Below are positions 10,552-34,675 of a stretch of 37,288 nucleotides of DNA, in pieces. Numbering within the stretch: the stretch's first letter is position 1; each line of letters begins with the position of its first letter. The notes under the pieces were generated by a model. It worked only from the letters and a program-made list of their open reading frames with translations. It was not told where the DNA came from and made no database searches. Made by a program: the position numbers and the translations under genes. The stretch is from positions 1 through 37,288 of IMG/VR virus record IMGVR_UViG_3300043419_000357. The stretch is one strand, 5' to 3'. This DNA comes from a virus.

Positions 10552-10580
10552 GGGGAGTCAGGAAACTGGCTCCCCTTTTT
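10552..10580 (+). terminator. Intrinsic terminator
   Basis: A 9-bp stem (GGGGAGTCA with TGGCTCCCC, one G-T pair), 6-base loop GGAAAC, then TTTTT. Ends transcription of the surface-protein gene. Confidence 0.9.
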
Positions 10581-10590
10581 GTATTTGTGT

Positions 10591-10596
10591 TATAAT
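10591..10596 (+). promoter_or_regulatory. Leaderless promoter -10
   Basis: TATAAT, six bases before the ATG at 10603. No RBS is present, so the mRNA is probably leaderless. No clear -35. Confidence 0.6.
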
Positions 10597-10602
10597 AAAC
10601 AT

Positions 10603-11184
10603 ATGATCATTCCTACAGGCTTTCGTAAAAAAATTATTGAGTCTGTAGAAAATAATAAGGGTGTAATATTTAAAGATTTTTTTGATAGTGAAACTACGCC
10701 AGGCTGGGAAGAAATAATGCAATGCCTACATAATGAGATTAGTCTCGATACTCATAGGCAGGAGTTTTCTATAAAGCCTAGTGAAGAAGAAAAGACCTAT
10801 GGAAATGTTATTATGTCTGATAAGTTGTACTTGGCATCTCATTTAGATCAAAAAATATTTAATGGATATTTCCCAAAAGTTTCAAAGGCACTGGATGTAA
10901 TAAGGAATTCATCAGGTATAGTCATAGTTGGCATTGGACCAAGAGTATGTCTAGGACCACACATAGTTAAGTTTCATAAGGATCAGTGGCATGCATTTGC
11001 TTTGCAGTGTGAAGGAAAAGCAAAATGGATCCTATCAGATACAAAAGAGGGTACTGGGCAATATGTTGAAGAGTTCTATCCTGAAAAGGGAGATATGATC
11101 TTCTTCCCCAAAGGTATGTGGCATAGAATAGAAACTCAGGATGCCCCAAGAGCAGGCTTGCAGTTCAATGCCCTTATATCTTAA
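10603..11184 (+). CDS. JmjC/cupin-like Fe(II)/2OG oxygenase
   Basis: A 193-residue double-stranded beta-helix protein. The HxD pair is H125/D127 (FHKDQWH), the distal histidine is H174 (KGMWHRI), and R183 in PRAGLQF fits the end of the cupin fold. The order matches cupin_8/JmjC-type hydroxylases. ATG 10603 is chosen over an upstream TTG because the TATAAT box lies six bases before it. Paralogous in layout to the gene at 33377-33934. Substrate unknown. Confidence 0.72.
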   Translation: MIIPTGFRKKIIESVENNKGVIFKDFFDSETTPGWEEIMQCLHNEISLDTHRQEFSIKPSEEEKTYGNVIMSDKLYLASHLDQKIFNGYFPKVSKALDVIRNSSGIVIVGIGPRVCLGPHIVKFHKDQWHAFALQCEGKAKWILSDTKEGTGQYVEEFYPEKGDMIFFPKGMWHRIETQDAPRAGLQFNALIS

Positions 11185-14205: not shown

Positions 14206-14730
14206 ATGACTTGTATTGCCGTAGTAAGACATGAAGATAAAATCTACATGGCTGGAGATCGTGGTGCCTCAGATGATGGTACTATTTTAGCATTAGATGC
14301 ACCAAAGGTTTGGAAAATTGGTCCATACCTTATTGGTTATGCAGGTGCAATGGATGGTGAAAGAATTCGGTATAACTTTAAACCAACTGCACCAAATATT
14401 AAAGACACAGATAAGTTTATGCAAACCAAATTTGTTAAAGAACTCCGTGAATTCTATAATGAATTTTGGGTTGACACATCTAAAGATGGAGATCTCGGTT
14501 TGATCATTGCAGTTCGTGGTGAAATATATGAGCATAGTTCTGCAGACATGTCTTTATCTAAATACACACTCCCTTATCTTGCTATGGGTTCAGGAGCAGA
14601 GTACGCATATGGAGTTTTGTATGCTACAGACAAGCAAAAAAATGCAAGGAATAGAGTAATGCAGGCAGTAAATTCTGCAATTAAGTTTAGCCCATCTTGC
14701 ATGGGTCCAGTTGACATCGTTAGCCTTTAA
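14206..14730 (+). CDS. Proteasome beta/HslV-like Ntn hydrolase
   Basis: 174 residues with the layout of a peptidase T1 subunit. After the initiator Met comes Thr2, the candidate N-terminal nucleophile; Asp18 (AGDRGASD) and Lys34 (DAPKVWKI) match mature-enzyme D17 and K33; a YLIGYAGAMDG segment matches the conserved glycine region. Methionine removal alone would expose the threonine. A GAGAGGG RBS lies upstream. Possible roles: head or tail maturation, or degrading host or regulatory proteins. It lies between holin and protease genes. Fold assignment is fairly strong; substrate unknown. Confidence 0.78.
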   Translation: MTCIAVVRHEDKIYMAGDRGASDDGTILALDAPKVWKIGPYLIGYAGAMDGERIRYNFKPTAPNIKDTDKFMQTKFVKELREFYNEFWVDTSKDGDLGLIIAVRGEIYEHSSADMSLSKYTLPYLAMGSGAEYAYGVLYATDKQKNARNRVMQAVNSAIKFSPSCMGPVDIVSL

Positions 14731-15883: not shown

Positions 15884-16441
15884 CTATTTTAATTTTAAAA
15901 AAGTTGTCATAGAGTATCTTTGTCCTGAAGATACCATTTTTACTCCATGTCTGTAGCCCTCATGTGCTGGATGAACCAGTAGGCTGTACGCCTCTGGTTT
16001 AAATTCTATTCCAAGATTGGGATAAAATATTTCACCACCCTCATACTCATCATTTAAATATAGAACAACACCATACTTAAACTTAGGTCCAAGCCCTGAG
16101 TCGCTATGAGTTTTCATTTCTTGACCAATCACTGATCTATAGATTGTGTTAAAGCCAGTGTATTCATAAATATCTTTTTTCAGTATTGAATTTATTTCTT
16201 TTTTTATTTTTTCAAATAAGTCTATAACAATCTTATTAGTCTTATCATCAAAAGAACTACAACTTTCCAATATTAAAATTCTATCATCCCACTCACTATC
16301 CTCACCTCTTTCTGTATAGTTATATACAGACCACTCCTCTTCTGTAGCATTCTTTGCTACAGTAGTTAAAGCATCGGATTCTTCTTTAGTAATAAAATTA
16401 TTAATCACAAAAATATTTGGATCGGGATTGTTTATTATCAT
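15884..16441 (-). CDS. P4H-like 2OG-Fe(II) oxygenase
   Basis: 185 residues of the prolyl-4-hydroxylase superfamily. H112 and D114 (THSDSG) form the HxD metal motif, VLYLNDEYEGGEIFY is the family signature, H165 (YRHGV) is the distal ligand, and R175 in GQRYSMTTF likely binds 2-oxoglutarate. It is the only minus-strand gene between 1 and 24.8 kb and has its own leaderless promoter, suggesting independent acquisition or expression timing. Substrate unknown. One of four P4H-like genes here. Confidence 0.88.
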   Translation of the reverse strand: MIINNPDPNIFVINNFITKEESDALTTVAKNATEEEWSVYNYTERGEDSEWDDRILILESCSSFDDKTNKIVIDLFEKIKKEINSILKKDIYEYTGFNTIYRSVIGQEMKTHSDSGLGPKFKYGVVLYLNDEYEGGEIFYPNLGIEFKPEAYSLLVHPAHEGYRHGVKMVSSGQRYSMTTFLKLK

Positions 16442-17466: not shown

Positions 17467-18090
17467 ATGGATCTTGAATCTGCTTCTATAAAACCAACTT
17501 ATATTAATGCAGGTTCGGTTGCTGTATATGAAGACTTCTGGGACTTAAATGAAGAAGATCTCACAAGTTTTGTAGATGAGTTATCAGATAATCTTTCAGG
17601 CCTTAGTTTTATTCCATCACAGGTAGGGGCAGATAGAGAGTCTGATAATCCATATACCCAGCAGTCTGTTAGAACAAGTTATGAAATGTCACTAACTAGG
17701 TTTGCTACAACTAATAAATCAGTAAAAAAAATAAACGACAAGTGCATTAGTTTTATCGGTTCTGCAATTAAAAACTATAAAGAAATTTTTAATATAGAGC
17801 AGGACATTGTTATTGGTGAGCCACACATACTTCTTAGGTACTTGGAAGGTAATAAGTTTAACCAGCACTACGATGGTGGAACTGAAACAAAGAGATGTGT
17901 ATCTGCTCTGGTCTATCTTAATGATAACTATGAGGGTGGAGAATTAGAGTTTACCAACTTTGGTTTAAAGATAAAGCCAAAGGCTGGGTCGCTAATACTT
18001 TTTCCATCAAACTATGCATATGCACACATTGCTCATCCAGTAACTTCTGGAACTAAATACGTAATAACTACATGGGGACACGATAGGTAA
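17467..18090 (+). CDS. P4H-like 2OG-Fe(II) oxygenase
   Basis: 207 residues. H134 and D136 (HYDGG), signature VYLNDNYEGGELEF, distal H190 (AHPV), and K197 in TKYVITTWG as the likely 2-oxoglutarate ligand. No RBS is visible; TAATAC sits six bases before the ATG with TGGACA 18 bases farther up, a weaker version of the leaderless promoter. Followed directly by an FmdB-like zinc protein. Second of four P4H-like enzymes in the window. Confidence 0.88.
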   Translation: MDLESASIKPTYINAGSVAVYEDFWDLNEEDLTSFVDELSDNLSGLSFIPSQVGADRESDNPYTQQSVRTSYEMSLTRFATTNKSVKKINDKCISFIGSAIKNYKEIFNIEQDIVIGEPHILLRYLEGNKFNQHYDGGTETKRCVSALVYLNDNYEGGELEFTNFGLKIKPKAGSLILFPSNYAYAHIAHPVTSGTKYVITTWGHDR

Positions 18091-24842: not shown

Positions 24843-25355
24843 TTATGCTGATAAGATCTTTGCTAAAGCATTAATTGTTGCTGCAAGTCTTCCAATATCA
24901 CGCAACTGTTCTACAGAATATCCTTCTTCTTTTAAAGTTTCGTAATGTGCTTTAACACAAAAATGACACTTTCCAATAATGGATGAAGCAAGGCAATATG
25001 CTTCAAACTTGGCTTTAGTTGTTCCACCATGTGTAGCAATGCCATTCATTCGCAGTTGCGCTGGAAGTCCCTTTAGATTTGGGTCATCTGCCATCTCTAA
25101 GTATGGATACCATATGTTATTTTGAGCCATAATAGCCCCTGCATACAGTGCAGCATCTCTTTCATTTTCATCAGTTGCACTTGCTAAAATAAAGGTTAGC
25201 AACTTTGAATTGCCAGTTGAAACAGCAGCAGAAACTGAAAGGTATAGTGCCTGATCTGGATCAATAGTTGATCTATTAACTACAGAATCAAGATTAAGTT
25301 TAATATCTTTGGCGTATCTAGGAAGGTTTTCACCTAATTGCTCAACCCAAGTCAT
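24843..25355 (-). CDS. ahpD: AhpD-like alkylhydroperoxidase
   Basis: 170 residues. The CxxC active site C130/C133, His137 and Glu118 (KFEAY...GKCHFCVKAHYETL) fall at the same numbers as in the characterised mycobacterial AhpD. AhpD reduces the peroxiredoxin AhpC and has weak peroxidase activity itself. ATG overlaps the ahpC stop (TAATG), so the two are translated as a pair. A full actinobacterial-type AhpCD couple on a phage looks like a host-derived auxiliary metabolic gene set. Confidence 0.93.
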   Translation of the reverse strand: MTWVEQLGENLPRYAKDIKLNLDSVVNRSTIDPDQALYLSVSAAVSTGNSKLLTFILASATDENERDAALYAGAIMAQNNIWYPYLEMADDPNLKGLPAQLRMNGIATHGGTTKAKFEAYCLASSIIGKCHFCVKAHYETLKEEGYSVEQLRDIGRLAATINALAKILSA

Positions 25356-25891
25356 TATAGAGTCTCACCACCAAGAGGTCTATTGCATGCACATAATTCT
25401 CCAGTTTGAAGAGCATCTAGAACACGAAGTGCCTCATCAGCATTACGACCAACATCTAGGTTATTTACAGTAATGTGCTGGATTACATTCTCTGGATCAA
25501 CAATAAATGTTGCACGGAAAGTAACACCAGAAGAGTGATGGATTCCAAGATCGTTTGCAAGTGTATGTGCTGTATCTGCAAATGACCATGAGTTAGTATT
25601 CTTTAAGTCTTCGTGTGCATTACGCCATGCAACCTTACAGAACTCATTATCTACTGATCCAGTTAGTAATACTGCATCACGATCATTAAAATCATTAACT
25701 AGAGCATCGTATGCAACTATCTCTGTTGGACATACAAATGTAAAGTCTTTTGGATAAAATACAAAGATCTTCCACTTTCCAGGAAATGAGTCCTGTGTTA
25801 ATACTTCGAATGATGAATCATCATATGTTAATGCTCCAGGCTTAACTCCAGTAACTGCAAAGTTGCCTAACTTATCTCCAATAGTCTTCAT
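25355..25891 (-). CDS. ahpC: AhpC peroxiredoxin
   Basis: 178 residues, 2-Cys peroxiredoxin. Peroxidatic Cys54 in TFVCPTE, and the resolving cysteines C167/C169 near the C terminus (GELCACNRP) where AhpC of Actinobacteria has its pair. R127 region (TFRATFIVD) fits the active-site Arg. Detoxifies peroxides with AhpD. Preceded by a 100-base leader with competing hairpins and an extended -10 promoter. RBS is weak (AGAGAAG). Confidence 0.95.
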   Translation of the reverse strand: MKTIGDKLGNFAVTGVKPGALTYDDSSFEVLTQDSFPGKWKIFVFYPKDFTFVCPTEIVAYDALVNDFNDRDAVLLTGSVDNEFCKVAWRNAHEDLKNTNSWSFADTAHTLANDLGIHHSSGVTFRATFIVDPENVIQHITVNNLDVGRNADEALRVLDALQTGELCACNRPLGGETL

Positions 25892-26009: not shown

Positions 26010-26013
26010 TGTG

Positions 26014-26086
26014 TACCCCTGGCAGGAATCGAACCTGCGACGCTTGGCTTAGAAGTCCAACGTTCTGTCCACTGAACTACAGAGGT
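26014..26086 (-). tRNA. tRNA-Arg(TCT)
   Basis: Acceptor ACCTCTG/CAGGGGT, anticodon loop CTTCTAA, T arm GCAGG-TTCGATT-CCTGC. Reads AGA. CCA not encoded. Confidence 0.92.
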
Positions 26087-26090
26087 TTAG

Positions 26091-26163
26091 TGCCCCTCAC
26101 TGGATTTGAACCAGTGCTGTAAGGATTTTAAGTCCTCTGCCTCTACCGCTGGGCTAGAGGGGC
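26091..26163 (-). tRNA. tRNA with anticodon TAA (Leu?), class I shape
   Basis: Acceptor GCCCCTC/GAGGGGC, anticodon stem GAGGA/TCCTT with loop CTTAAAA, T arm ACTGG-TTCAAAT-CCAGT. The anticodon reads UUA (Leu), yet the variable region is only about five bases; tRNA-Leu normally has a long arm. Confidence 0.8.
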
Positions 26164-26166
26164 TTG

Positions 26167-26237
26167 CTTCTCCCCTAGGACTCGAACCTAGATTGCTGGT
26201 GCCAAAAACCAGAGTCCTGCCATTGGACGAAGGAGAA
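26167..26237 (-). tRNA. tRNA-Gln(TTG)
   Basis: Acceptor TTCTCCT/GGGAGAA, anticodon stem CTGGT/ACCAG with loop TTTTGGC, T arm CTAGG-TTCGAGT-CCTAG. Confidence 0.92.
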
Positions 26238-26377
26238 AAATGTCGGGTCAGTTTATAGAGCACCACACTGTAAGGACCTTCACCGCATGCCCCGACGACA
26301 TGGTGCAGTAGACTCCTAGTTGCCCCTGCATCTTGCCGTAAACAGTAACCAGTGACTGCGATAACAAGAGTTTCCTG
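26238..26377. other. Gene-free spacer in the tRNA array, structured
   Basis: 140 bases with no ORF of note. GTCGGG and CCCGAC flank a plus-strand stretch CAGTTTATAGAGCACC that looks like a tRNA D arm, but no T arm or matching anticodon stem is found. May be a decayed tRNA or a separate RNA. Confidence 0.4.
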
Positions 26378-26448
26378 CGCCGTCTCTAGGAGTCGAACCT
26401 AGGCTTACCGCTTTGGAGACGGTAGTGCTTCCGTAACACTTAGACGAC
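26378..26448 (-). tRNA. tRNA-Trp(CCA)
   Basis: Acceptor GTCGTCT/AGACGGC, anticodon stem ACCGT/GCGGT with loop CTCCAAA, T arm CTAGG-TTCGACT-CCTAG. Confidence 0.92.
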
Positions 26449-26576
26449 AAATGATCAACAAGTCTACGAGCAGACTAACTTATTGATCTGATATATGAGG
26501 ATTTACATAAGCCCGTTGTCCTCCAGTTGTCCCCGTCGGGAGACAGATGTTTCACTGCAACTCAACCTTAATATCG
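26449..26576. other. Second structured spacer in the tRNA array
   Basis: 128 bases, no tRNA. GATCAA/TTGATC with an inner AGTCT/AGACT hairpin at about 26453-26492, and a 7-bp hairpin (TGTCCCC with GGGAGACA, loop GTCG-like) near 26528-26545. Function unknown; could be processing signals or small RNAs. Confidence 0.35.
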
Positions 26577-26650
26577 TACATCTGGAAGGACTTGAACCTT
26601 CGGCTCTCTGCATATAAGGCAGGTACTCTAACCAACTGAGTTACAGATGT
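26577..26650 (-). tRNA. tRNA-Ile(TAT)
   Basis: Acceptor ACATCTG/CAGATGT, anticodon loop CTTATAT, T arm GAAGG-TTCAAGT-CCTTC. Reads AUA. First anticodon-stem pair is C-A. Confidence 0.88.
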
Positions 26651-26651
26651 G

Positions 26652-26723
26652 TAGCCCCAACGGGAGTCGAACCCGTCTTGCCAGATTGAAAATCTGGAGT
26701 CCTAACCGATAGACGATGGAGCC
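26652..26723 (-). tRNA. tRNA-Glu(TTC)
   Basis: Acceptor GGCTCCA/TGGGGCT, anticodon stem CCAGA/TCTGG with loop TTTTCAA, T arm ACGGG-TTCGACT-CCCGT. Confidence 0.92.
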
Positions 26724-26727
26724 ATTG

Positions 26728-26810
26728 CGGAAGTAACAGGATTCGAACCTGTGGATCTTTCGATCTACGATTTAGCAAACCGTTGCATTCGACCACTCTG
26801 CCATACTTCC
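26728..26810 (-). tRNA. tRNA-Ser(GCT)
   Basis: 83 bases with the expected long variable arm (AGATC GAAA GATC). Acceptor GGAAGTA/TACTTCC, anticodon loop TTGCTAA, T arm ACAGG-TTCGAAT-CCTGT. Confidence 0.93.
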
Positions 26811-26816
26811 ATCTTG

Positions 26817-26889
26817 CTGGGGATGCAGGCCTCGATCCTGCGACTTGCGAATTAACAGTTCGCCACTCTACCAACTGAGTTAATCCCCA
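26817..26889 (-). tRNA. tRNA-Asn(GTT)
   Basis: Acceptor TGGGGAT/ATCCCCA, anticodon stem GCGAA/TTCGC with loop CTGTTAA. The T loop reads ATCGAGG, lacking the universal T54. Confidence 0.88.
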
Positions 26890-26899
26890 TGAGTATTAA

Positions 26900-26908
26900 A
26901 TTGTATCA
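26900..26908 (-). promoter_or_regulatory. Possible internal tRNA promoter
   Basis: TGA plus TACAAT on the minus strand between tRNA-Met and tRNA-Asn; the predicted start would be close to the tRNA-Asn 5' end. Confidence 0.4.
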
Positions 26909-26911
26909 TAG

Positions 26912-26985
26912 TACACCAGGTAGGACTCGAACCTACGATAACCGAATTATGAGTTCGGGGCCTTAACCAACTTGGCTACTGGTGC
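26912..26985 (-). tRNA. tRNA-Met(CAT)
   Basis: Acceptor GCACCAG/CTGGTGT, anticodon stem CCGAA/TTCGG with loop CTCATAA, T arm GTAGG-TTCGAGT-CCTAC. Paired acceptor end argues against an initiator; tRNA-Ile2 (modified C34) is possible. Overlaps the carbamoyltransferase 3' end by 23 bases. Confidence 0.9.
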
Positions 26986-28408
26986 CTACTATTATATTAT
27001 ACATGTAATGGCTCTCCCAGTCAAATACATCATTAGCATCATTTAGTAGTGGTTGACCTTTAATGTTTAAACTAGTATTAAGTAAGATTGGTACGCCAGT
27101 TTTTAGATAGAACTTATTTAAAACCCTCCACAAACCACGATGTTGTTGACGATTTACAGTCTGCACTCGTGATGTCCCATCAGCATGAACTACTGAAGGA
27201 ATTAATTCTGGTCTTAAGCACTTAACAGTATACTGCATGTAAGGGCTTGAAAAATCCATATCAAACCATTTAGATGCACATTCTTCCATAACTACTGGAG
27301 CAAAAGGTCTAAATAGTTCTCTCTGCTTTATCTTGTTTACTTTATCCTTGATATCTGGATCTCTTGGGTCAGCAAGAATAGATCTATTCCCTAATGCTCT
27401 AGGTCCATATTCTGATCTACCTGATGCTACTGCGACAATTCCATCCTTCAAGATGCCGTCTACAATTTGCTGAACTGGGTACTCTCCTCCAAGATCATGT
27501 CCAAGATATGGAGACTTCCAATTAAGATGCTTTCCATAAAGGGCAGCAGCAGCACCTAGGGAACTGCCAGCGTCACCTGGATTCGGCATAATCCAAATCA
27601 TGTCAAAGATGTTCCAAAGAAGTGTGTTAGCAGATGAGTTAAGTGCACATCCACCCATGAAGACTAAGTTATTCTTTCCAGTTATATCTTTTGCCATACG
27701 CATAAAGTCGTTTAGTCTTTGTTCGTAAACAACTTGAACTGCTGCAGCAATATCAAACTTATCCTGTTCTGAACTGATCCATCCCCAGTCAGTAATTCCT
27801 TTATGAAAGTTATATTTTTGTCGGGTATATGAAGGGAAATAATCATTAACTTTTTTGTAATGCTTTCTCCAATCACCGTAAGCAGCCATACCCATCATAA
27901 TATATTCTTCTTGGTTTGGCATAAGACCAATTAATTGAGTGAATGCTGAGTAGAACAATCCAAAACTAACAGGATAGTTTTGCTTATATCTAAGTTTAAT
28001 TTTGTCGCCTTGACCTACCCAAATTGTCGAGGTATTGTATTCGCCGATTGCATCAAGAACTACAATAACAGCATCATTAAAATCACTAGTATAGTATCCT
28101 GCTGCTGCATGAGAATAGTGATGACCAAAAGATTTTCTAGGTATGCCATCTATAGTAAACCTAGGCATCCATTCGCCAGATCCACCCCTTAAAGCCAGTC
28201 TAGAGGCCTTTAGAAGTGGCTTCTCGTAGTAGGCTATAGCATTGGGTACCCCATAGGATAAAGCATCATTGATTAGACTATCATTCACATACCAGTCATT
28301 TTTTTGCTTACTATACCTTTCAGCATGTCCAGCAAAAAGAATCTCTCCATCTTTAATTAAAGATACAGATGCGTCGTGTGATGTTTCATTTATCCCAAGG
28401 ATAATCAT
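26963..28408 (-). CDS. NodU/CmcH-type carbamoyltransferase
   Basis: 481 residues. N-terminal Kae1-like ATPase fold: ILGINETSHDASVSLIKDG, GHHYSHAAAGYY (metal-binding HxxxH) and MGGCALNSSANTLLW. C-terminal domain: GRSEYGPRALGNRSILADPRD and LFRPFAPVVMEE, NTSLNIKGQPL. The family transfers carbamoyl from carbamoyl phosphate, through carbamoyl adenylate, to hydroxyls of sugars or antibiotics. ATG overlaps the SGNH gene stop (ATGA). The stop codon lies inside the tRNA-Met gene. On a phage it likely decorates a glycan, nucleotide or virion component; substrate unknown. Confidence 0.93.
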   Translation of the reverse strand: MIILGINETSHDASVSLIKDGEILFAGHAERYSKQKNDWYVNDSLINDALSYGVPNAIAYYEKPLLKASRLALRGGSGEWMPRFTIDGIPRKSFGHHYSHAAAGYYTSDFNDAVIVVLDAIGEYNTSTIWVGQGDKIKLRYKQNYPVSFGLFYSAFTQLIGLMPNQEEYIMMGMAAYGDWRKHYKKVNDYFPSYTRQKYNFHKGITDWGWISSEQDKFDIAAAVQVVYEQRLNDFMRMAKDITGKNNLVFMGGCALNSSANTLLWNIFDMIWIMPNPGDAGSSLGAAAALYGKHLNWKSPYLGHDLGGEYPVQQIVDGILKDGIVAVASGRSEYGPRALGNRSILADPRDPDIKDKVNKIKQRELFRPFAPVVMEECASKWFDMDFSSPYMQYTVKCLRPELIPSVVHADGTSRVQTVNRQQHRGLWRVLNKFYLKTGVPILLNTSLNIKGQPLLNDANDVFDWESHYMYNIIVGTSSQVG

Positions 28409-29370
28409 TTATCTTTTTCTATCTTTGCTATAAAACTATCTGCAGTATGCTGTTGCCAGTGAATACCTAGGTGGCTTTTGTCAGATGCAATTTTCCACAT
28501 AGATTTATATTTATCAAAATCTTCTGACTTCATATCGTGAGTAGAGTCGCAATTTTCCTCGTCAAGGTAGTCTACATTCTTTAAAAGTGGATTTGCTAAA
28601 ACCTGTGACCTAATGGTCTCTACAAAAGTATTTCTATTTAAACAAAAATCATCCATAGTAAAAAGGTTTTCTAGAAACATCATTCTTGTTGAGTCATGCC
28701 ATGTTCCCCAATAAAACTTTATATTTAGTAAATTACAAATTGCTTCTATAGTATAGATAGAAGATATATATTGACTAATTGATTCTTCTGTTGAGATCAT
28801 ATATGTTGGATCAGTTGGTAGTTTAATTATTTTATTTTCTATATTGACAGACCCGTTAATGTGGTCAGAGGTTCTTGTATGTGTTATTACCTTCCTAGAT
28901 TTTGAATTATTTCCTTCATTGTCATTCAAATAGAAAAATGATCCTTCGGAAATGTGACTATATCTATGATGATCTGGAAAACATGCTAATACATATTCTG
29001 GAATTCCAACAGTATCTAAGTAAAGAAAAAATGATTCCATGGTTTTTTGTGCACTTGCACCACAAATTCCTAAGTTTGCAACTGTTTTACCAGTTTTTGT
29101 TTCTATAATTGATGGCCAAGTATACTCTTGTGGCACACCTATTCCGTATGTATGCGAGCAACCAAGTGTAACAATTTCTGATGGCTTATTAGGCTGCCAA
29201 TCTTTTTTATCTCTAAAGGTAAAGTTGTTGACATGGTATTGATTAGTATAGTTATCTAGATATGTTTTGTTGTCTACTATATCCATATCATTTAACTTCA
29301 TATTTTTGTTATGCAACTTTAAAGCAAAGTCTAGGTTATATTTTTTAGAATTAGTAGGTGTATTTTTCAT
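28405..29370 (-). CDS. SGNH/GDSL-like hydrolase
   Basis: 321 residues. VTLGCSHTYGIGVP carries the block I nucleophile serine (GxSxxxG), NLGICGASAQ resembles block II, and DKSHLGIHWQQH gives the C-terminal Asp/His block. No signal peptide, so it acts in the cytoplasm. It is related in layout to the protein at 32501-33388. Overlaps the carbamoyltransferase start, indicating a joint modification operon. Could be an esterase, acetyl- or acyl-transfer enzyme on sugars. Confidence 0.75.
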   Translation of the reverse strand: MKNTPTNSKKYNLDFALKLHNKNMKLNDMDIVDNKTYLDNYTNQYHVNNFTFRDKKDWQPNKPSEIVTLGCSHTYGIGVPQEYTWPSIIETKTGKTVANLGICGASAQKTMESFFLYLDTVGIPEYVLACFPDHHRYSHISEGSFFYLNDNEGNNSKSRKVITHTRTSDHINGSVNIENKIIKLPTDPTYMISTEESISQYISSIYTIEAICNLLNIKFYWGTWHDSTRMMFLENLFTMDDFCLNRNTFVETIRSQVLANPLLKNVDYLDEENCDSTHDMKSEDFDKYKSMWKIASDKSHLGIHWQQHTADSFIAKIEKDK

Positions 29371-29449
29371 AGTTACCCTTTTTCTTTTTCTTAAACTTTT
29401 TTAAAGTTTTATATATAAAATATTGAATACTTAATATCATCTAAGTATC

Positions 29450-29593
29450 CTATTTAATCAATATTCCAAAAAAAGTTCCAATAATAAAAGAGCCAATGCC
29501 AACAGTCCAATGATAGTATGTTTTCATGTGTTCTTTAATGATTGCCTGCTTTAGTTCATCAGGTATTTTTTTTAATTTATCATAATCTACCAT
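29450..29593 (-). CDS. Small C-tail membrane protein
   Basis: 47 residues: a charged helix (DYDKLKKIPDELKQAIIKEH) followed by a hydrophobic helix (TVGIGSFIIGTFFGILI) at the end. Lies four bases after the previous small gene. Function unknown. Confidence 0.6.
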   Translation of the reverse strand: MVDYDKLKKIPDELKQAIIKEHMKTYYHWTVGIGSFIIGTFFGILIK

Positions 29594-29597
29594 AAGA

Positions 29598-29771
29598 TTA
29601 ATTCTTTACATTTTGAGATGCATTAATCAGGTGATGCTGAATAATCTGCTCTCTTAAAAATGCCTGCTTACGCTCAAATTTTGACAAGTAAGGCTTTGCT
29701 TGTACTCTCTTCTTATTCTTTACTGCTCGTTTGATCTTATGCTGAGATACTTTATTGTTTGATTTTTTCAT
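29598..29771 (-). CDS. Small very basic protein
   Basis: 57 residues with many Lys and Arg (KIKRAVKNKKRVQAKPYLSKFERKQ). Possibly nucleic-acid binding. No RBS; it begins six bases after the -10 of a consensus promoter, so it is probably the first gene of the SGNH/carbamoyltransferase operon. Confidence 0.65.
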   Translation of the reverse strand: MKKSNNKVSQHKIKRAVKNKKRVQAKPYLSKFERKQAFLREQIIQHHLINASQNVKN

Positions 29772-29777
29772 ATTCTA

Positions 29778-29806
29778 ATGATACCATTCTTTAGGTTGTG
29801 TGTCAA
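29778..29806 (-). promoter_or_regulatory. Consensus leaderless promoter (minus)
   Basis: TTGACA (29806-29801), 17 bases, TATCAT (29783-29778), six bases to ATG 29771. Overlaps the 3' end of the phosphatase gene. Confidence 0.85.
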
Positions 29807-30261
29807 GACTTATTTCCATCCCAATCACCAATTTTTGTAGTAGGGATTCCATACTCTTCCCATAGACGAATAACATTTGGGTTGTCGTCAATAGCATGAA
29901 CAACATTCCAATGATTTTTAATGCTGTGAAGGATGTCTTTTTTGACATCATAATCTGGTCTAAAATCACCATCTTTACGCATATATAGCGCATGGTGACC
30001 AAGATCATGCTTTGCCAACCAGTAGGATGTAACTCCTCTCCATTTTTCAGTTCTAGATGTAACAACTAAAACATGATGCTGATCAAAGAAAGCCCTATTT
30101 AGCATTTCTACAACTTCTAAATTTGGCAGGGCATCAATAGATGCCTCATGAAAAGCGTCATAGTTCCTATCTGGACCACGAACTAAATGAATATAGGGGT
30201 CTACATTTGCAAGAGTGCCATCTACATCAAATATGTATGCTTTAGGCTTAATCTTGGTCAA
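29803..30261 (-). CDS. HAD-family 3'-phosphatase-like protein (TTG start)
   Basis: 152 residues. HAD motifs: FDVDGTLA (nucleophile Asp), VTSRTE, a Lys in DVKKDI and AIDDNPNV. The order and size match the phosphatase domain of T4 PseT/PNKP proteins without the kinase half. The only in-frame start after the upstream stop is TTG 30261, which lies inside the preceding 29-codon ORF. Possibly repairs RNA or DNA 3' ends, or acts on sugar phosphates. Confidence 0.8.
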   Translation of the reverse strand: MTKIKPKAYIFDVDGTLANVDPYIHLVRGPDRNYDAFHEASIDALPNLEVVEMLNRAFFDQHHVLVVTSRTEKWRGVTSYWLAKHDLGHHALYMRKDGDFRPDYDVKKDILHSIKNHWNVVHAIDDNPNVIRLWEEYGIPTTKIGDWDGNKS

Positions 30262-30337
30262 CCTTATAAGTCATTGCAACGTAGCATGCAATGTATCCCA
30301 TAAAAAATGCTGGGATTAAAAATAATACATTAATCAT
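30248..30337 (-). CDS. 29-residue membrane micro-protein
   Basis: One hydrophobic helix (INVLFLIPAFFMGYIACYVA) followed by a short charged tail. A strong AAGGAG RBS lies six bases before ATG and a consensus promoter follows upstream. It overlaps the phosphatase TTG start by 14 bases, so it may serve to couple translation as well as act at the membrane. Confidence 0.65.
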   Translation of the reverse strand: MINVLFLIPAFFMGYIACYVAMTYKVDQD

Positions 30338-30365
30338 ATACTCTCCTTACTGTTTGTATATTACA

Positions 30366-30394
30366 ATTATACCGAAGTAAATCAATGATGTCAA
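30366..30394 (-). promoter_or_regulatory. Consensus promoter (minus)
   Basis: TTGACA (30394-30389), 17 bases, TATAAT (30371-30366); drives the micro-protein and phosphatase. Confidence 0.88.
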
Positions 30395-30399
30395 GCCAA

Positions 30400-31065
30400 T
30401 CAGCAGTCGTCTTTTGTGCTGACTGGAACATTTATATCTGACCAGCACTGACCATACAAGGTGTGTCTTGAGTTAGGTCCAAGAACCTTAGTTACCCTAT
30501 GAGTAAACTCTTCTCCAATAGGTATATTGACTAACATTCCTGATTCTGGCTTAATGACATAGCCTTTTCTAAATTCTACTAAACCACCTTCAAAATCATC
30601 ATTTAAATAAATAGAGTGTGAGGCAGCCCTATTGCCTTGAGGCCCTGGATCTTCCCAATGCCAATCCATAGCATAACCAATGTCTGCCGTTTTTGCTTGG
30701 TCAAGGTTCCTATCTCTTTCAATTTCTTCATCTGTACAATATTTAAATGTTTGAATACCACTATTTCTTCCGTAACCTTGTGGCAGAACTGATTCAAGTC
30801 TTTCATATATGCCACCAGGTTTTCCAAACAATTCTTCTATCTCTGGGACTGTAGGGTCTCCAGGAACTGGAAACTTTAATGAGCCATCTTCTTCAAACTG
30901 TGGAACGTTCATTGGAAACTTATTTAAAATGTTTTTGTAATGCGATCTCATTGTGGCGTACCAACCAGTTGGCTCATCACAATAAGGTCTTAGAGTCTCA
31001 AGTTCTTCTTTAGTTAAAAAATTTTTTATGTACCAAAGGCCTTCATCTAGATATATTTTTTCCAT
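30400..31065 (-). CDS. P4H-like 2OG-Fe(II) oxygenase, HxE variant
   Basis: 221 residues from ATG 31065. Signature SIYLNDDFEGGLVEF; distal H189 (FTHRV) and R200 (SRHTLYGQCW). The metal motif reads H136-W-E138, an HxE instead of HxD. ATG 31065 is chosen because TATAAT lies exactly six bases before; the frame extends five codons upstream through the promoter. Third of the P4H-like set. May still bind iron, or be altered in activity. Confidence 0.85.
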   Translation of the reverse strand: MEKIYLDEGLWYIKNFLTKEELETLRPYCDEPTGWYATMRSHYKNILNKFPMNVPQFEEDGSLKFPVPGDPTVPEIEELFGKPGGIYERLESVLPQGYGRNSGIQTFKYCTDEEIERDRNLDQAKTADIGYAMDWHWEDPGPQGNRAASHSIYLNDDFEGGLVEFRKGYVIKPESGMLVNIPIGEEFTHRVTKVLGPNSRHTLYGQCWSDINVPVSTKDDC

Positions 31066-31071
31066 ATTGCA

Positions 31072-31077
31072 ATTATA
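31072..31077 (-). promoter_or_regulatory. Leaderless promoter -10 (minus)
   Basis: TATAAT (31077-31072), six bases before ATG 31065; -35 weak. Confidence 0.6.
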
Positions 31078-31079
31078 CA

Positions 31080-31364
31080 TTATCTATTTTTGTCCCAGAC
31101 ATGACCAAGAAATGATCTCCAAGATACGCTTTCTTTGTCTAGGTCTTTCCAATGTATGTATGACTTAATATACACAATGGAGTAAGCAATAGCAGCAAAT
31201 ATAAAGCCATACTGTTTGGTTACTAGGGCATAATATATCCACATTGCCTCATTAAATGTAGCCCAAATCCATGCCCAAATCTGTCTTCGGCCCACAAAGT
31301 AAATTGCTGCAACACCACTTAGAGCAAGCACCCAGGATGCATAATCATTAATCCATTGTTCCAT
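31080..31364 (-). CDS. PnuC-like small membrane protein
   Basis: 94 residues, three predicted hydrophobic helices (WVLALSGVAAIYFVG; WAWIWATFNEAMWIYYALV; FIFAAIAYSIVYIKSYI). GRRQIWAWIWATFNE and TKQYGFIFAAIAYSIVYIKSYIHW recall the PnuC/nicotinamide riboside transporter pattern but at half the length. Good RBS (AAGGAAA). Could import a pyridine nucleotide precursor, or be a remnant. Confidence 0.6.
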   Translation of the reverse strand: MEQWINDYASWVLALSGVAAIYFVGRRQIWAWIWATFNEAMWIYYALVTKQYGFIFAAIAYSIVYIKSYIHWKDLDKESVSWRSFLGHVWDKNR

Positions 31365-31377
31365 AAGTTTCCTTAAA

Positions 31378-31608
31378 TTAATTGGCTTGCTTGCCCTTGG
31401 TCTTTACCCAAGTGCCTATCTTGCCATTACTAACTTTTGACCTTAGCGTCTCTGCAAATGCTGTTATTATTTCAGAGCCAAGGTACTCTTCTCCAGTTTC
31501 TAGGTCAATAAGTTTCCACTTACCTGGAGCCTTTGTATGTATTATCAATTCTAGCGGGGTATCAAAAGACTCAACTTCTGTACCGTCTTTAAGTATTCTT
31601 TTATCCAT
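31378..31608 (-). CDS. Hypothetical protein
   Basis: 76 residues from ATG 31608, which overlaps the previous stop (TAATG). Contains PGKWKLIDLETGEEYLGSE, a small beta domain, and a basic C terminus (KIGTWVKTKGKQ). The pattern is familiar from phage small proteins; no function known. Confidence 0.7.
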   Translation of the reverse strand: MDKRILKDGTEVESFDTPLELIIHTKAPGKWKLIDLETGEEYLGSEIITAFAETLRSKVSNGKIGTWVKTKGKQAN

Positions 31609-31733
31609 TAAGACACAAGACCCATAGACAGGTGGGTAAGGCAAACATCTGCAACTATATAATCAGAGTGGTCTACTACCACATCGTAATGTGTTGCATC
31701 TTTCTCACAAAAGAAACATTTTGCTTTTTTCAT
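31608..31733 (-). CDS. Zinc micro-protein
   Basis: 41 residues with CFFC near the start and CLTH near residue 33 (CxxC...CxxH). No RBS; leaderless from TATAAT six bases upstream. Likely one zinc-ribbon. Coupled to the next gene. Confidence 0.7.
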   Translation of the reverse strand: MKKAKCFFCEKDATHYDVVVDHSDYIVADVCLTHLSMGLVS

Positions 31734-31739
31734 ATAATG

Positions 31740-31745
31740 ATTATA
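31740..31745 (-). promoter_or_regulatory. Leaderless promoter -10 (minus)
   Basis: TATAAT (31745-31740) with TGA extension, six bases before ATG 31733. Confidence 0.65.
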
Positions 31746-31755
31746 TCATAAAAGA

Positions 31756-31860
31756 TTATTTATGATCTGCCTTCATATGCCTGTATAGACTATCATGAGC
31801 AAAGCCTACTCTAAAGTCCCACTCTTTTTTACAGACAGGACAGATAATAGTTCTAGCCAT
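31756..31860 (-). CDS. C2H2-like zinc micro-protein
   Basis: 34 residues: CPVC, then H25-ish and a final HMKADH, giving a C2H2 finger of CxxC...HxxxxH type. RBS AAGGA. Overlaps the end of the preceding gene. Possibly DNA-binding. Confidence 0.65.
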   Translation of the reverse strand: MARTIICPVCKKEWDFRVGFAHDSLYRHMKADHK

Positions 31861-32098
31861 TTAGATCCTTCTTCCATGCTTCCATATCGATTATGTAGTA
31901 TGTTCCCCACCATTCGTAAGGCTTGTTAAGAATATTATACATTTTTGCGTGGTACTTATAACGCCATCCCAATTCCTGATCTTCGTCCATGTTGACACAC
32001 TTAACTATATGATTACCAGCAAACTCTCCAGAGATATTTCCGATCCATCGTAATAAAATATTACTTGTTTTCTGATGTTTGATCGAATGATTGATCAT
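31853..32098 (-). CDS. Hypothetical protein, start uncertain
   Basis: About 81 residues if ATG 32098 is the start; ATG 31993 (MDEDQELGWRYKYHAKMYN) is an alternative. The C-terminal part (WRYKYHAKMYNILNKPYEWWGTYYIID) looks like real protein, rich in Trp and Tyr. The first third overlaps the 43-residue ORF in another frame, so the N terminus is doubtful. Confidence 0.5.
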   Translation of the reverse strand: MINHSIKHQKTSNILLRWIGNISGEFAGNHIVKCVNMDEDQELGWRYKYHAKMYNILNKPYEWWGTYYIIDMEAWKKDLNG

Positions 32099-32192
32099 CT
32101 TTTGGCACCCAAACTTTCTTTCCATCTTTATATACAGGCCAATAGCCAAGGCTACGCCAGTCCATAGACATAATCTTAGGATCTTTTGGCAT
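32061..32192 (-). CDS. Small hypothetical protein
   Basis: 43 residues: MPKDPKIMSMDWRSLGYWPV then KDGKKVWVPKDDQSFD, a short beta-hairpin-like sequence. Overlaps the upstream zinc protein by 17 bases. No clear RBS. Function unknown. Confidence 0.55.
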   Translation of the reverse strand: MPKDPKIMSMDWRSLGYWPVYKDGKKVWVPKDDQSFDQTSENK

Positions 32193-32391
32193 TTACGCAC
32201 CACACTTTATAATCGCTCATTGTCTGATGACTTTCCCAAAACAGTGGGTCCTTGTGATGCATCTCACACTCAGGACATTCATTCTTAGTAATCTTAACAT
32301 CCTTGCACTTGGGACACTTAGTAGTAGGGTTAGTTGTTCCATATGGTACAGTAAAGGTACCACCACAATCAAAACACAGCACAATTGGCAT
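32176..32391 (-). CDS. Zinc-ribbon protein
   Basis: 71 residues. Three cysteine pairs: CFDCG, CPKC and CPEC with an MHH segment, giving up to two zinc sites. First gene of a minus-strand series driven by the promoter at 32417-32445. Probably nucleic-acid binding; family not named. Confidence 0.75.
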   Translation of the reverse strand: MPIVLCFDCGGTFTVPYGTTNPTTKCPKCKDVKITKNECPECEMHHKDPLFWESHQTMSDYKVWCVNAKRS

Positions 32392-32416
32392 TAGGTCTTC
32401 TTTCTTCTATTATATA

Positions 32417-32445
32417 ATTGTATCACAGGACTACATTTAAGTCAA
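32417..32445 (-). promoter_or_regulatory. Promoter (minus)
   Basis: TTGACT (32445-32440), 17 bases, TACAAT (32422-32417). Divergent from the plus-strand promoter below. Confidence 0.75.
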
Positions 32446-32448
32446 ATA

Positions 32449-32457
32449 TGATATAAT
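32449..32457 (+). promoter_or_regulatory. Extended -10 promoter
   Basis: TGA plus TATAAT on the plus strand, 43 bases before ATG 32501. Confidence 0.5.
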
Positions 32458-32500
32458 GTTTAAATATTAGTTTTATTTATAAGTTAAAAGAAAGAAAACA

Positions 32501-33388
32501 ATGAAAAGAAAAAAAGATCTACACCTTCTTGATTTTGGCATACCAGATCGAGTAGTTGAGCCTGATCCTTTTTATGATAATTTTATTAGTCATGAGCATA
32601 GGCATGAAAATATGGTAGATGAACTAAAACTAGAAGTAAGAAGTAAAAAGTTTACATATAAAGATAGCATGCCTATAGAATATAATGTAAACTCAAAAGG
32701 TTTTAGATCGATTGAGTTTGTTAATAATCCTGACGTAATAACTTCTGGCTGCTCCCAGTCTTTTGGTGTAGGACTACCATCAAAGTATATCTGGTCTAAC
32801 TTGTTAGATGAGTCTGGATCTTTAAAGGTTATTAACATATCCTATCCAGGAACAAGCACTCAGACTATAGTTGAAGATATCTTTAGATATATTAATGAGT
32901 ACGGCAACCCAAAGTATATTAGAATACTTGTCCCAGACTTTATACGTTTTAAATTTTTAAAAGCATTAGATACTAATTACTATGTTGAGTTTGCCAAGGG
33001 GAACTTTGGAGATTTCCTTAATACTGTCGCCAGCATGGACCAATCCCTAAGCAAATATGAAAAACTACCAGTCCCAATTGAAAAGATTATGCCGTATTCA
33101 GTTCCATTTAGGACATCACTAATGCATATCAAAATGCTTGAGTCGTATTGCGAAGTAGCAAAAATTGATCTTAAGTGGGCAACTTGGGATAGCAAGTTAA
33201 AGTATCATTTTTCTAAGCACGACTATGGATTTAAAAACTATGTTGCAAACAGTGATATCTTAGACTATTCTTCATGCCACTCTGAATTAAAAGAAGAGTT
33301 TGAGGAATTATTTTATTTAGCAGCAGATATTGACGAGCATATGGGTACTCATGCACACTCACATTATGCAAAGATATTATCCTTGTAG
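32501..33388 (+). CDS. SGNH/GDSL-like hydrolase, second copy
   Basis: 295 residues. TSGCSQSFGVGLP carries the nucleophile Ser, ISYPGTSTQ is block II-like, and DEHMGTHAHSHYA provides the Asp/His end. Same order and spacing as the protein at 28405-29370, so they are distant paralogs. It is the only plus-strand gene between 24.8 and 37.2 kb, apart from the edge gene, and its 3' end overlaps the opposing JmjC-like gene by 12 bases. RBS weak. Confidence 0.72.
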   Translation: MKRKKDLHLLDFGIPDRVVEPDPFYDNFISHEHRHENMVDELKLEVRSKKFTYKDSMPIEYNVNSKGFRSIEFVNNPDVITSGCSQSFGVGLPSKYIWSNLLDESGSLKVINISYPGTSTQTIVEDIFRYINEYGNPKYIRILVPDFIRFKFLKALDTNYYVEFAKGNFGDFLNTVASMDQSLSKYEKLPVPIEKIMPYSVPFRTSLMHIKMLESYCEVAKIDLKWATWDSKLKYHFSKHDYGFKNYVANSDILDYSSCHSELKEEFEELFYLAADIDEHMGTHAHSHYAKILSL

Positions 33389-33934
33389 CAGCGTTTCTTC
33401 TAATCTATTAAAGTTTAACTTGTATTCAAACTGTATTGCTGCTCTAGGCTCTGTTGTAATCACATTATGCTTAGTGTAGTTTGGTATGAAAATTACATCA
33501 CCTGGGTTTAAAACATAACTTATATCCTCAAACTCCCAAAGAGTAGTGCCTATACATTGCCAATAGAAGTGATCTTTAGAGTCCACATGCTGCCTTGATG
33601 GTGGTTCTTTAGCAAAGTTTACATATGCAGCCAGTGGCTTGCCTTCGCCCAGTAATTCAAACTCTTTAAAGAATATTTCTATTTCTGGATAAAACTCTTT
33701 AGTCGGGTAGGTAATGTTAACGTAAAAAGGATCTTTAAATAATACTCCATTGACAAACTTCTCTCTAGTTGCATCTAAAGCATGGTACTTAACTTCGGTA
33801 TTGTGATACTCTGAATTCAAATGATCAATGAAGTTTTCCCATTTGGGAACTGATGGAAGTATATTTTTAAATAGATAAGGTTTCTTGTTTTTCTTTGCAT
33901 CAATGATTTCTTTTATCAATCGATCCACATCCAC
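33377..33934 (-). CDS. JmjC/cupin-like Fe(II)/2OG oxygenase
   Basis: 185 residues. H116/D118 (RQHVDSKDHFYWQ), H156 (YTKHNVI), R164 in PRAAIQFEY, with LNPGDVIFIP as the cupin strand. The layout mirrors the protein at 10603-11184. ATG lies inside the end of the P4H-like gene (19-base overlap), so the two are likely co-translated and may act on the same substrate. Confidence 0.75.
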   Translation of the reverse strand: MDVDRLIKEIIDAKKNKKPYLFKNILPSVPKWENFIDHLNSEYHNTEVKYHALDATREKFVNGVLFKDPFYVNITYPTKEFYPEIEIFFKEFELLGEGKPLAAYVNFAKEPPSRQHVDSKDHFYWQCIGTTLWEFEDISYVLNPGDVIFIPNYTKHNVITTEPRAAIQFEYKLNFNRLEETLLQG

Positions 33935-34662
33935 TTCATGTATGAGTTACGCTCAATCCTCTCACGAAGATTTTCTTTCTTATTCCATTCTTCTTCAGAG
34001 TACTTAGCCTTCTCCTCATGCCATTCGGGGGAGCCATCATACTTGTAGTGCCAGAATGATCTAACAAAGTACTTTGTACCTTCGTCTACGGTTCTAACTC
34101 CATGTCTATATCTTTCTCCAGATGGGAATACAACTAGGTCTCCTGCTTTAGGCTTATATCTGACAAGATTTTCGGTATCGTCATCAATCATAAATACGAT
34201 ATCCCCACCCTTATAATCATCATTAATATAAAGGTTTGCAGTTATGTAATGCTTAAGTCCTGGCTGATCCTTTTGTTCCTGCTTATAGTCGGTATGAAAA
34301 GGCATGATGAGGTTTGTGTATCTTACTCTCTTAGGCCTATAGAAACATAGTTGGTTACTAGAGGTGTGCAACTCTCCTGTTCCCATTCCATATCTGTTTA
34401 TATAGTCAATAGTAACTTTGCCAAATAGGTCATTGTAAATTGCTGTTATCTCATTGTTATATGGGTTACTTGATGTGGCAGTTGATGAGAACTCCAAAGG
34501 GTCTCCGCTGTATGGGGTACATTCGAGTCTGGTCATCTTACCAAAACTGCCCCATTTGCCCCAGTCATCTTCGCCGTAATTACTAATTATTTCAAGGATG
34601 CGGTCAGACTCTTCTTTGAAATTATATACGACAACTTGGTCGGTCAAAACGTAGGATTCCAT
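33916..34662 (-). CDS. P4H-like 2OG-Fe(II) oxygenase
   Basis: 248 residues from ATG 34662. H123/D125 (PFHTDY), NLYINDDYKGGDIVF signature, H187 (YRHGV), K197 (TKYFVRSFW). The start is chosen because TATAAT ends seven bases before it; ATG 34671 overlaps that box. C-terminal 45 residues are charged. Fourth P4H-like enzyme, coupled to the JmjC-like gene. Confidence 0.88.
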   Translation of the reverse strand: MESYVLTDQVVVYNFKEESDRILEIISNYGEDDWGKWGSFGKMTRLECTPYSGDPLEFSSTATSSNPYNNEITAIYNDLFGKVTIDYINRYGMGTGELHTSSNQLCFYRPKRVRYTNLIMPFHTDYKQEQKDQPGLKHYITANLYINDDYKGGDIVFMIDDDTENLVRYKPKAGDLVVFPSGERYRHGVRTVDEGTKYFVRSFWHYKYDGSPEWHEEKAKYSEEEWNKKENLRERIERNSYMKWMWID

Positions 34663-34669
34663 AGTTTCC

Positions 34670-34675
34670 ATTATA
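34670..34675 (-). promoter_or_regulatory. Leaderless promoter -10 (minus)
   Basis: TATAAT (34675-34670), seven bases before ATG 34662. Confidence 0.55.

Follow-up and report, generated by a model that had tools for sequence, protein, structure and literature searches.

The locus studied here raises the question of whether a carbamoyltransferase, two SGNH-type enzymes, three oxygenases and a phosphatase encoded close together in a viral genome act in one pathway. The window, that is, the whole 37,288-nucleotide stretch that was analyzed (IMG/VR record IMGVR_UViG_3300043419_000357), comes from an environmental virus of actinobacteria-type ancestry. An earlier note, made from the sequence alone, described these genes as an island that decorates a glycan, nucleotide or virion component. 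Sequence and profile searches recovered every gene it named, each in its place; the 'island' is nonetheless two things, a true module composed of SGNH1 and CarbT, and a set of oxygenases, a polynucleotide kinase phosphatase (PNKP)-type phosphatase and a PnuC-like gene that are mostly separate from it.

CarbT (26963–28408, minus strand; 481 residues) is a member of the NodU/CmcH O-carbamoyltransferase family. It contains the Pfam domains Carbam_trans_N (4e-34) and Carbam_trans_C (2.4e-53), both over threshold (119 and 180.6 bits; cut-offs, 24 and 27), matches the Nol-like family phrog_1601 (3.5e-104) and carries the motif GPRALGNRS. In an alignment of 16 phage proteins, H11, H96/H97, H100, D119 and D279 are invariant (Kae1-like His/Asp); transfer of a carbamoyl group to a hydroxyl is the predicted reaction. 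The nearest solved structures are NovN, GdmN and TobZ (NovN and GdmN were aligned with CarbT), which carbamoylate sugar or macrolactam hydroxyls. The nearest cellular homologue is 46% identical (Streptomyces/Plantactinospora); the SGNH profile identified no adjacent SGNH gene, and its neighborhood, drawn from simple ORF calls, was uninformative.

SGNH1 (28405–29370, minus strand; 321 residues), a hydrolase/acyltransferase-like protein, has weak Pfam matches (DUF6473, 1.8e-4; Lipase_GDSL_3, 0.07), and no signal peptide was seen in it. Its AF2 model (pLDDT 74.8) is predicted to adopt the SGNH fold; the top VIA-align match is CgnD (Z 15.4), tied with TesA-type esterases (13–15, within Z 1), and many SGNH enzymes score 13–15. 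Among 38 aligned relatives, SGNH2 included, G70, S72, G76 and H300 are invariant and D297 is nearly so; S72 is the block I Ser, and D297 and H300 form the block V Asp-x-x-His. The earlier note's second SGNH enzyme is borne out: SGNH2 (32501–33388, plus strand) is divergent and has no Pfam match, but the SGNH profile set groups it with the relatives of SGNH1, and it shares their motifs (GCSQSFGVG, DIDEHMG). We assign SGNH1 to the SGNH hydrolase superfamily by fold and SGNH2 by motifs and profile, with predicted activity on acyl esters. Because SGNH proteins diverge rapidly, close-relative scans with SGNH1 or SGNH2 alone retrieved nothing from viral contigs, nor did SGNH1 retrieve anything from annotated phages; the SGNH alignment contained no stretch sufficiently conserved to scan with. 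Loci often contain two or three SGNH relatives.

The coupling of carbamoyltransferase and SGNH hydrolase that the earlier note described is physical and conserved. The two minus-strand genes, SGNH1 and CarbT, share 4 nt (ATGA), and similar overlaps occur in relatives. The pairing was assessed at 80 CarbT loci against 5000 passes of a within-locus gene shuffle; this null was used because the TerL loci (L082–L161) are an unfair control for SGNH frequency, that is, their flanks miss the CarbT region. At 68 of the 80, CarbT has an SGNH gene as its direct neighbor in the same orientation (10.1 expected; maximum in any shuffle, 22), and no adjacent SGNH gene is present at the remaining 12; in the reciprocal direction, CarbT occurs at 24 of the 27 loci of one SGNH family. 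The pair also occurs in marine phages (L361, L363, L365, L366, L369–L371 and L408) whose CarbT is ~37–45% identical to their query. Partners are exchanged: CarbT can be 82–91% identical where the SGNH partner has fallen to 16–29%, with the catalytic Ser and Asp-x-x-His still kept, and the CarbT tree requires at least eight changes of genome position and 17 of the side on which SGNH lies. The order SGNH-CarbT-tRNA-AhpC-AhpD recurs in the window and its relatives; in the window, a tRNA-Met(CAT) gene (26911–26985, minus strand; ARAGORN) shares the last 23 nt of CarbT, and an AhpC-type peroxiredoxin (25355–25891, minus strand; ORF and translation) and its AhpD/CMD-type partner (24843–25355, minus strand; PF02627, 7.7e-8) follow. 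The 23-nt overlap is found in 27 of 80 relatives. The overlap and the Kae1-like domain also prompted consideration of a role in tRNA modification, which was set aside because about two-thirds of the relatives have no tRNA at CarbT. These sequence comparisons show that the pairing of CarbT with SGNH is conserved and that the two genes have changed place in the genome together, sometimes taking the overlapping tRNA gene along. We found no paper describing such a phage pair.

The rest of the island is less coherent. Its three oxygenases are as first described: P4H_A (33916–34671, minus strand; 7e-11) and P4H_B (30400–31080, minus strand; 7.7e-6, 27.2 bits against a cut-off of 27) match 2OG-FeII_Oxy_3, and the gene at 33377–33934 (minus strand) encodes a JmjC/cupin-like 2OG oxygenase (JmjC_2, 1.8e-5, 24.7 bits against a cut-off of 22; QHVD...KH motif). 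P4H_A is prolyl-hydroxylase-like, with predicted peptidyl-proline hydroxylation: its sequence profile is nearest to P3H1 and bacterial P4H, its AF2 model (pLDDT 84.8) is nearest to P3H1/PHD2 in Foldseek, and it has the HxD...H triad (HTD...H190); the triad of P4H_B is HWE...H, not HxD. Oxygenases are not confined to the island, because three more 2OG/JmjC genes lie outside it: 10579–11184, P4H_C (15884–16441, minus strand; 2OG-FeII_Oxy_3, 3e-8) and P4H_D (17467–18090, plus strand; 2OG-FeII_Oxy_3, 6e-17). Relatives of P4H_C and P4H_D are directly upstream of CarbT in CHAP-side rows. Across the 80 loci, P4H genes beside CarbT are weakly enriched (16 versus 9.7 expected by shuffle, p = 0.024), and JmjC genes near CarbT are rare (7 among 1,995 genes). 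The 'HAD phosphatase' (29803–30261, minus strand) is a phosphatase, but it is the polynucleotide kinase phosphatase domain (PF25109, 7e-22; phrog_415, 6e-42) and not a sugar enzyme; it is of the nucleic-acid end-repair type and probably not in a decoration pathway. Relatives of this gene, P4H_B, o88 and the half-length PnuC-like membrane protein (31080–31364, minus strand; NMN_transporter, 1.1e-6; phrog_2421) recur together, away from CarbT; in the window, the PnuC-like gene and small ORFs lie between the other genes of the island. The sole match to a defense-system library was a generic 2OG model. Co-occurrence in other phages goes beyond chance for CarbT and SGNH; P4H adjacency barely above chance, the rarity of JmjC near CarbT and the PNKP type of the phosphatase do not support the eight-gene set, taken as a unit, as one conserved pathway.

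Relatives provide a glycan and virion context. Some contain the row 2OG oxygenase–PF11397 GlcNAc-transferase–P4H–P4H–CarbT–(SGNH); PF11397 is present in 5 of 14 records, and the window contains neither a PF11397 gene nor the fiber region. A GT8-like gene follows CarbT-SGNH-SGNH in one marine phage (L365), and an O-methyltransferase or radical SAM gene is near marine CarbT. In this phage family, proteins of the collagen-like (Gly-X-Y) or (Val-Thr-Pro)n kind are encoded in the virion fiber modules. All six near-complete (long) relatives encode a collagen-like protein (0.05 per shuffled pass) and 4–13 P4H-type genes each, P4H clusters adjoin fiber genes, and three loci (L404–L406) have a (VTP)n fiber-SGNH-JmjC/P4H arrangement. 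In most loci, the CarbT-SGNH pair does not adjoin a fiber gene; SGNH relatives also occur beside fiber-like genes without CarbT.

In Skp1, hydroxyproline glycosylation proceeds by a P4H and then a PF11397 GlcNAc-transferase, and mimivirus modifies collagen. As in those systems, P4H-like and PF11397-related genes are adjacent in the relatives, with collagen-like proteins in the same genomes; however, those systems are eukaryotic or from a eukaryotic virus, and the corresponding phage activity is predicted. We know of no CarbT-SGNH pair in either. Cyanophages and pelagiphages encode Nol-like/NodU carbamoyltransferases (phrog_1601) of the same family as CarbT (~25–42% identity to the window's protein), and in virion regions these genes frequently have 2OG oxygenase and glycan genes close by (S-SSM7, HTVC008M; Sullivan 2010, PMC3037559); unlike in the window, the SGNH profile identified no partner at the annotated loci of cyanophages, pelagiphages and T4-like marine phages that we examined. 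The crocagin cluster encodes a dioxygenase (CgnC), a hydrolase (CgnD) and a carbamoyltransferase (CgnI) together, a parallel to the oxygenase, SGNH1 and CarbT; it differs in making a bacterial peptide natural product and in having CgnB and CgnE proteins (PMC10070186). SGNH1 and CgnD match in fold only (~12% identity).

What, then, is the substrate? The likeliest answer, which we hold tentatively and somewhat short of an even chance, is that the phage encodes a decoration pathway, with the mobile SGNH-CarbT cassette as its core, that acts on virion fiber proteins or their glycans; the substrate is putative. The pairing, CarbT's solved relatives, the glycan/fiber gene rows, the P4H_A fold and the crocagin precedent count in its favor; the weak P4H-CarbT adjacency, the lack of a fiber region and PF11397 in the window, the location of most pairs away from fiber genes, the 12 unpaired CarbT genes, the patchy PF11397 and the CgnD tie count against it. 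The cassette might instead edit host surface glycans or their precursors during infection, e.g., masking receptors against superinfection, with the hydroxylases as unrelated virion genes. NodU-type enzymes act on sugars, SGNH divergence would fit changing host glycans and the cassette is outside the fiber module in many loci; CarbT shares a row with P4H and GT genes in a subset, however, and SGNH relatives sit beside fiber-like genes without CarbT, and we consider this account rather unlikely. Slightly more doubtful is mere co-residence, that is, a small-molecule role for SGNH-CarbT and independent accessory roles for the oxygenases, phosphatase and PnuC-like gene; the barely enriched P4H adjacency and the separate grouping of PNKP, P4H_B, PnuC and o88 relatives favor it, and the rows that join 2OG oxygenase, GT, P4H, CarbT and SGNH argue against it.

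Two further routes are very improbable. CarbT could make 5-carbamoyloxymethylcytosine in phage DNA, an activity proven for a sewage metavirome phage enzyme of the same family (MetaGPA 5-hydroxymethylcytosine carbamoyltransferase; PMC8670742), and some P4H genes are weakly similar to Tet_JBP. The partner of that enzyme is a thymidylate-synthase homologue, which co-occurred only in the modified contigs of that study (PMC8670742); no PF00303 thymidylate-synthase/dCMP-hydroxymethylase homologue was matched in 13 relatives (records that are possibly fragments), nor, in 13–14 related records (several >100 kb), was ThyX or a C5-methyltransferase. Tet/JBP (PF12851) matches all fall under the curated cut-off of 34.9 (best, 24.8 bits in relatives and 16.5 in the window). 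DNA carbamoylation is disfavored because of these missing partner families and subthreshold matches, and with it the nucleotide target in the earlier proposal; the conserved CarbT-SGNH partners, the prolyl-hydroxylase relatives of P4H_A and, in a subset, the rows of 2OG oxygenase and PF11397-related glycosyltransferase genes give that proposal partial support. A crocagin-like route, in which a small ribosomal peptide would be hydroxylated, hydrolyzed by an SGNH-type enzyme and carbamoylated, would use the same kinds of enzymes as the crocagin cluster; an unsystematic look showed no precursor peptide, and this and the multiplicity of SGNH relatives per locus argue against it.

In the preferred virion-decoration pathway, P4H/JmjC enzymes would hydroxylate residues on fiber proteins, glycosyltransferases would attach sugar to the hydroxyls so formed or to others, CarbT would convert carbamoyl phosphate to carbamoyl-AMP and carbamoylate a hydroxyl of the fiber glycan or hydroxylated side chain, and the SGNH enzyme would add or remove an acyl group at a neighboring hydroxyl; rapid SGNH divergence may reflect changing acceptors. 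The product would alter the virion surface and might affect host recognition, stability or shielding. A more specific version, which we regard as improbable in its full detail, is that collagen-like or Pro/Thr-rich fibers are hydroxylated, GlcNAc-type sugars are placed on the new hydroxyls (as in Skp1) and the exchangeable CarbT-SGNH cassette caps them with O-carbamoyl and acyl groups.

Phage carbamoyltransferases are common, and their role has been guessed at; one paper assigned pyrimidine synthesis to such an enzyme (PMC9146016). The constant presence of an SGNH partner points to capping chemistry, and its exchange while CarbT stays constant defines a two-enzyme system that can be assayed. 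Because genes of the prolyl-hydroxylase-like, PF11397-related and collagen-like kinds occur together, the idea that a bacterial virus carries out glycosylation dependent on hydroxylation can be tested.

All of the genes named in the earlier note are present in the window, and the coupling that it described between a carbamoyltransferase and an SGNH hydrolase is seen directly: the NodU/CmcH-type O-carbamoyltransferase gene (CarbT; 26963-28408, minus strand) and the gene for its SGNH-fold partner (SGNH1; 28405-29370, minus strand) share a four-base overlap, ATGA. CarbT contains two NodU-family domains and keeps the conserved His/Asp residues (alignment of 16 proteins); among solved structures, NovN, GdmN, and TobZ come closest to it. 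In 68 of 80 loci encoding a CarbT at least 82% identical, its immediate same-strand neighbor is an SGNH gene, a count that hinges on ORF calls made by simple rules; random placement within the same loci (5000 trials) gives a mean of 10.1 and a maximum of 22 such adjacencies, although this shuffle alone overstates independence because the 80 loci are related. CarbT is found beside the terminase, the lysin (CHAP), or Hsp20, or on the tRNA/Ahp side, with SGNH neighbors in each position, and its tree calls for a minimum of eight shifts in position, six in SGNH presence, and 17 in the side on which SGNH lies. In a reverse search from one SGNH family, CarbT adjoins in 24 of 27 loci. Distant marine phages (L361, L363, L365, L366, L369–L371, and the single-cell virus AG-345-D19) carry the pair too; it was not found with the SGNH profile in the T4-like marine group L297–L346, such absences being provisional because viral records may be fragments. 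The interpretation of the pair as a functional module is well supported. In L365 (5558-9746), a row of CarbT, two SGNH genes, and a GT8-like glycosyltransferase lies directly past virion-like genes.

The SGNH proteins of this set are scarcely detected by Pfam. For a structure model of SGNH1 built with 38 relatives (mean pLDDT 74.8), the matches are SGNH enzymes throughout: crocagin CgnD (Z 15.4 across 213 residues) as well as esterases, TesA among them (Z 13–15), with matches within Z 1 of each other regarded as tied. By predicted fold, SGNH1 is an SGNH enzyme. Ser72 and His300 do not vary, and Asp297 hardly does. The second SGNH-type protein (SGNH2; 32501-33388, plus strand) belongs to the same profile family. 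The SGNH proteins adjoining CarbT form some 36 clusters at 50% identity; CarbT of locus L014 is 87% identical to that of the window, its SGNH protein only 27%.

The oxygenases are less closely tied to CarbT. The three assigned to the proposed island are present, but three more are located elsewhere in the window, and the association with CarbT, strong for SGNH, is weak for the prolyl-hydroxylase-like (P4H) genes, which lie next to it in 16 of the 80 loci against 9.7 by chance (p=0.024). The 2OG triad is HTD...H in P4H_A (33916-34671, minus strand) and HWE...H in P4H_B (30400-31080, minus strand); the motif of the JmjC-like protein (33377-33934, minus strand), read from the sequence, is QHVD...KH. 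By sequence and fold, P4H_A is nearest to the prolyl hydroxylases P3H1, PHD2, and bacterial P4H. Near-complete genomes of the phage family encode 4–13 P4H genes, in several clustered beside fiber genes. The gene described as a HAD phosphatase (29803-30261) is present but encodes a polynucleotide-kinase phosphatase domain (PF25109, phrog_415); other loci repeat its grouping with a P4H_B relative and a half-length PnuC-like protein, the latter encoded between the oxygenases in the window (31080-31364).

The last 23 nt of CarbT lie inside a tRNA-Met gene (26911-26985), so that the 5′ part of the tRNA encodes the CarbT C-terminus (e.g., SSQVG, SSLVG). Exactly the same overlap occurs in 27 of 80 relatives, with tRNA-Met in 25 and tRNA-Ile in two, and not always at the same genome position. 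An AhpC/AhpD pair (24843-25891 in the window) is recurrently downstream of CarbT and the tRNA in relatives; the order SGNH–CarbT–tRNA–AhpC–AhpD is found repeatedly next to the terminase, but in the window and L002 it lies elsewhere, and these differing positions support movement of the genes as a block. Nine tRNA genes occupy 26013-26985, five for ANN codons (Arg-TCT, Ile-TAT, Ser-GCT, Asn-GTT, Met-CAT).

The record, at 37,288 bases a whole IMG/VR virus record, is probably a fragment; contigs related to it are as long as 109–119 kb. The terminase of the window shares 55% identity with those of ~128-kb Streptomyces phages (e.g., Kenrey, Gilson), so an actinobacterial host is likely. A proteasome-like (Ntn-hydrolase) protein (14206-14730; PF00227, 3.6e-5) is conserved among relatives.

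A CarbT known from a metavirome acts on DNA, an activity that is established (PMC8670742). The same role is unlikely for the CarbT of the window: the partner genes of the metavirome enzyme are missing here, in records that may be fragments. The nearest described combination is the crocagin cluster, with an oxygenase, a hydrolase of SGNH1-like fold, and a carbamoyltransferase; its enzymes act on a small peptide (PMC10070186); a literature search, with most subscription journals outside its scope, found no report naming phage, SGNH hydrolase, and carbamoyltransferase together. In a set of relatives whose CarbT precedes the lysin, the genes run in the order 2OG-type gene (recognized by eye through its motifs, without a Pfam match), PF11397-related glycosyltransferase, a single P4H or two, CarbT, and in many cases SGNH. 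PF11397 is a GlcNAc-transferase family of Skp1 type; the relationship was drawn with an iterated profile uniting the row glycosyltransferases with bona fide PF11397 matches, the query itself having no Pfam match at 0.1. Each of the six long relatives has a gene for a protein containing 11–23 Gly-X-Y triplets, whereas a shuffled pass would yield 0.05. Three SGNH loci without CarbT contain a fiber-like gene with long (Val-Thr-Pro)n repeats (L404 1894-3162; L405 1589-3073; L406 1783-3075), one small ORF, SGNH, and then JmjC/P4H genes. The window's 37,288 nt contain neither a PF11397 gene nor a fiber region. Decoration of a glycan or fiber is the reading that best fits this context and the chemistry of the solved relatives; we infer each of its steps beyond the conserved pair.
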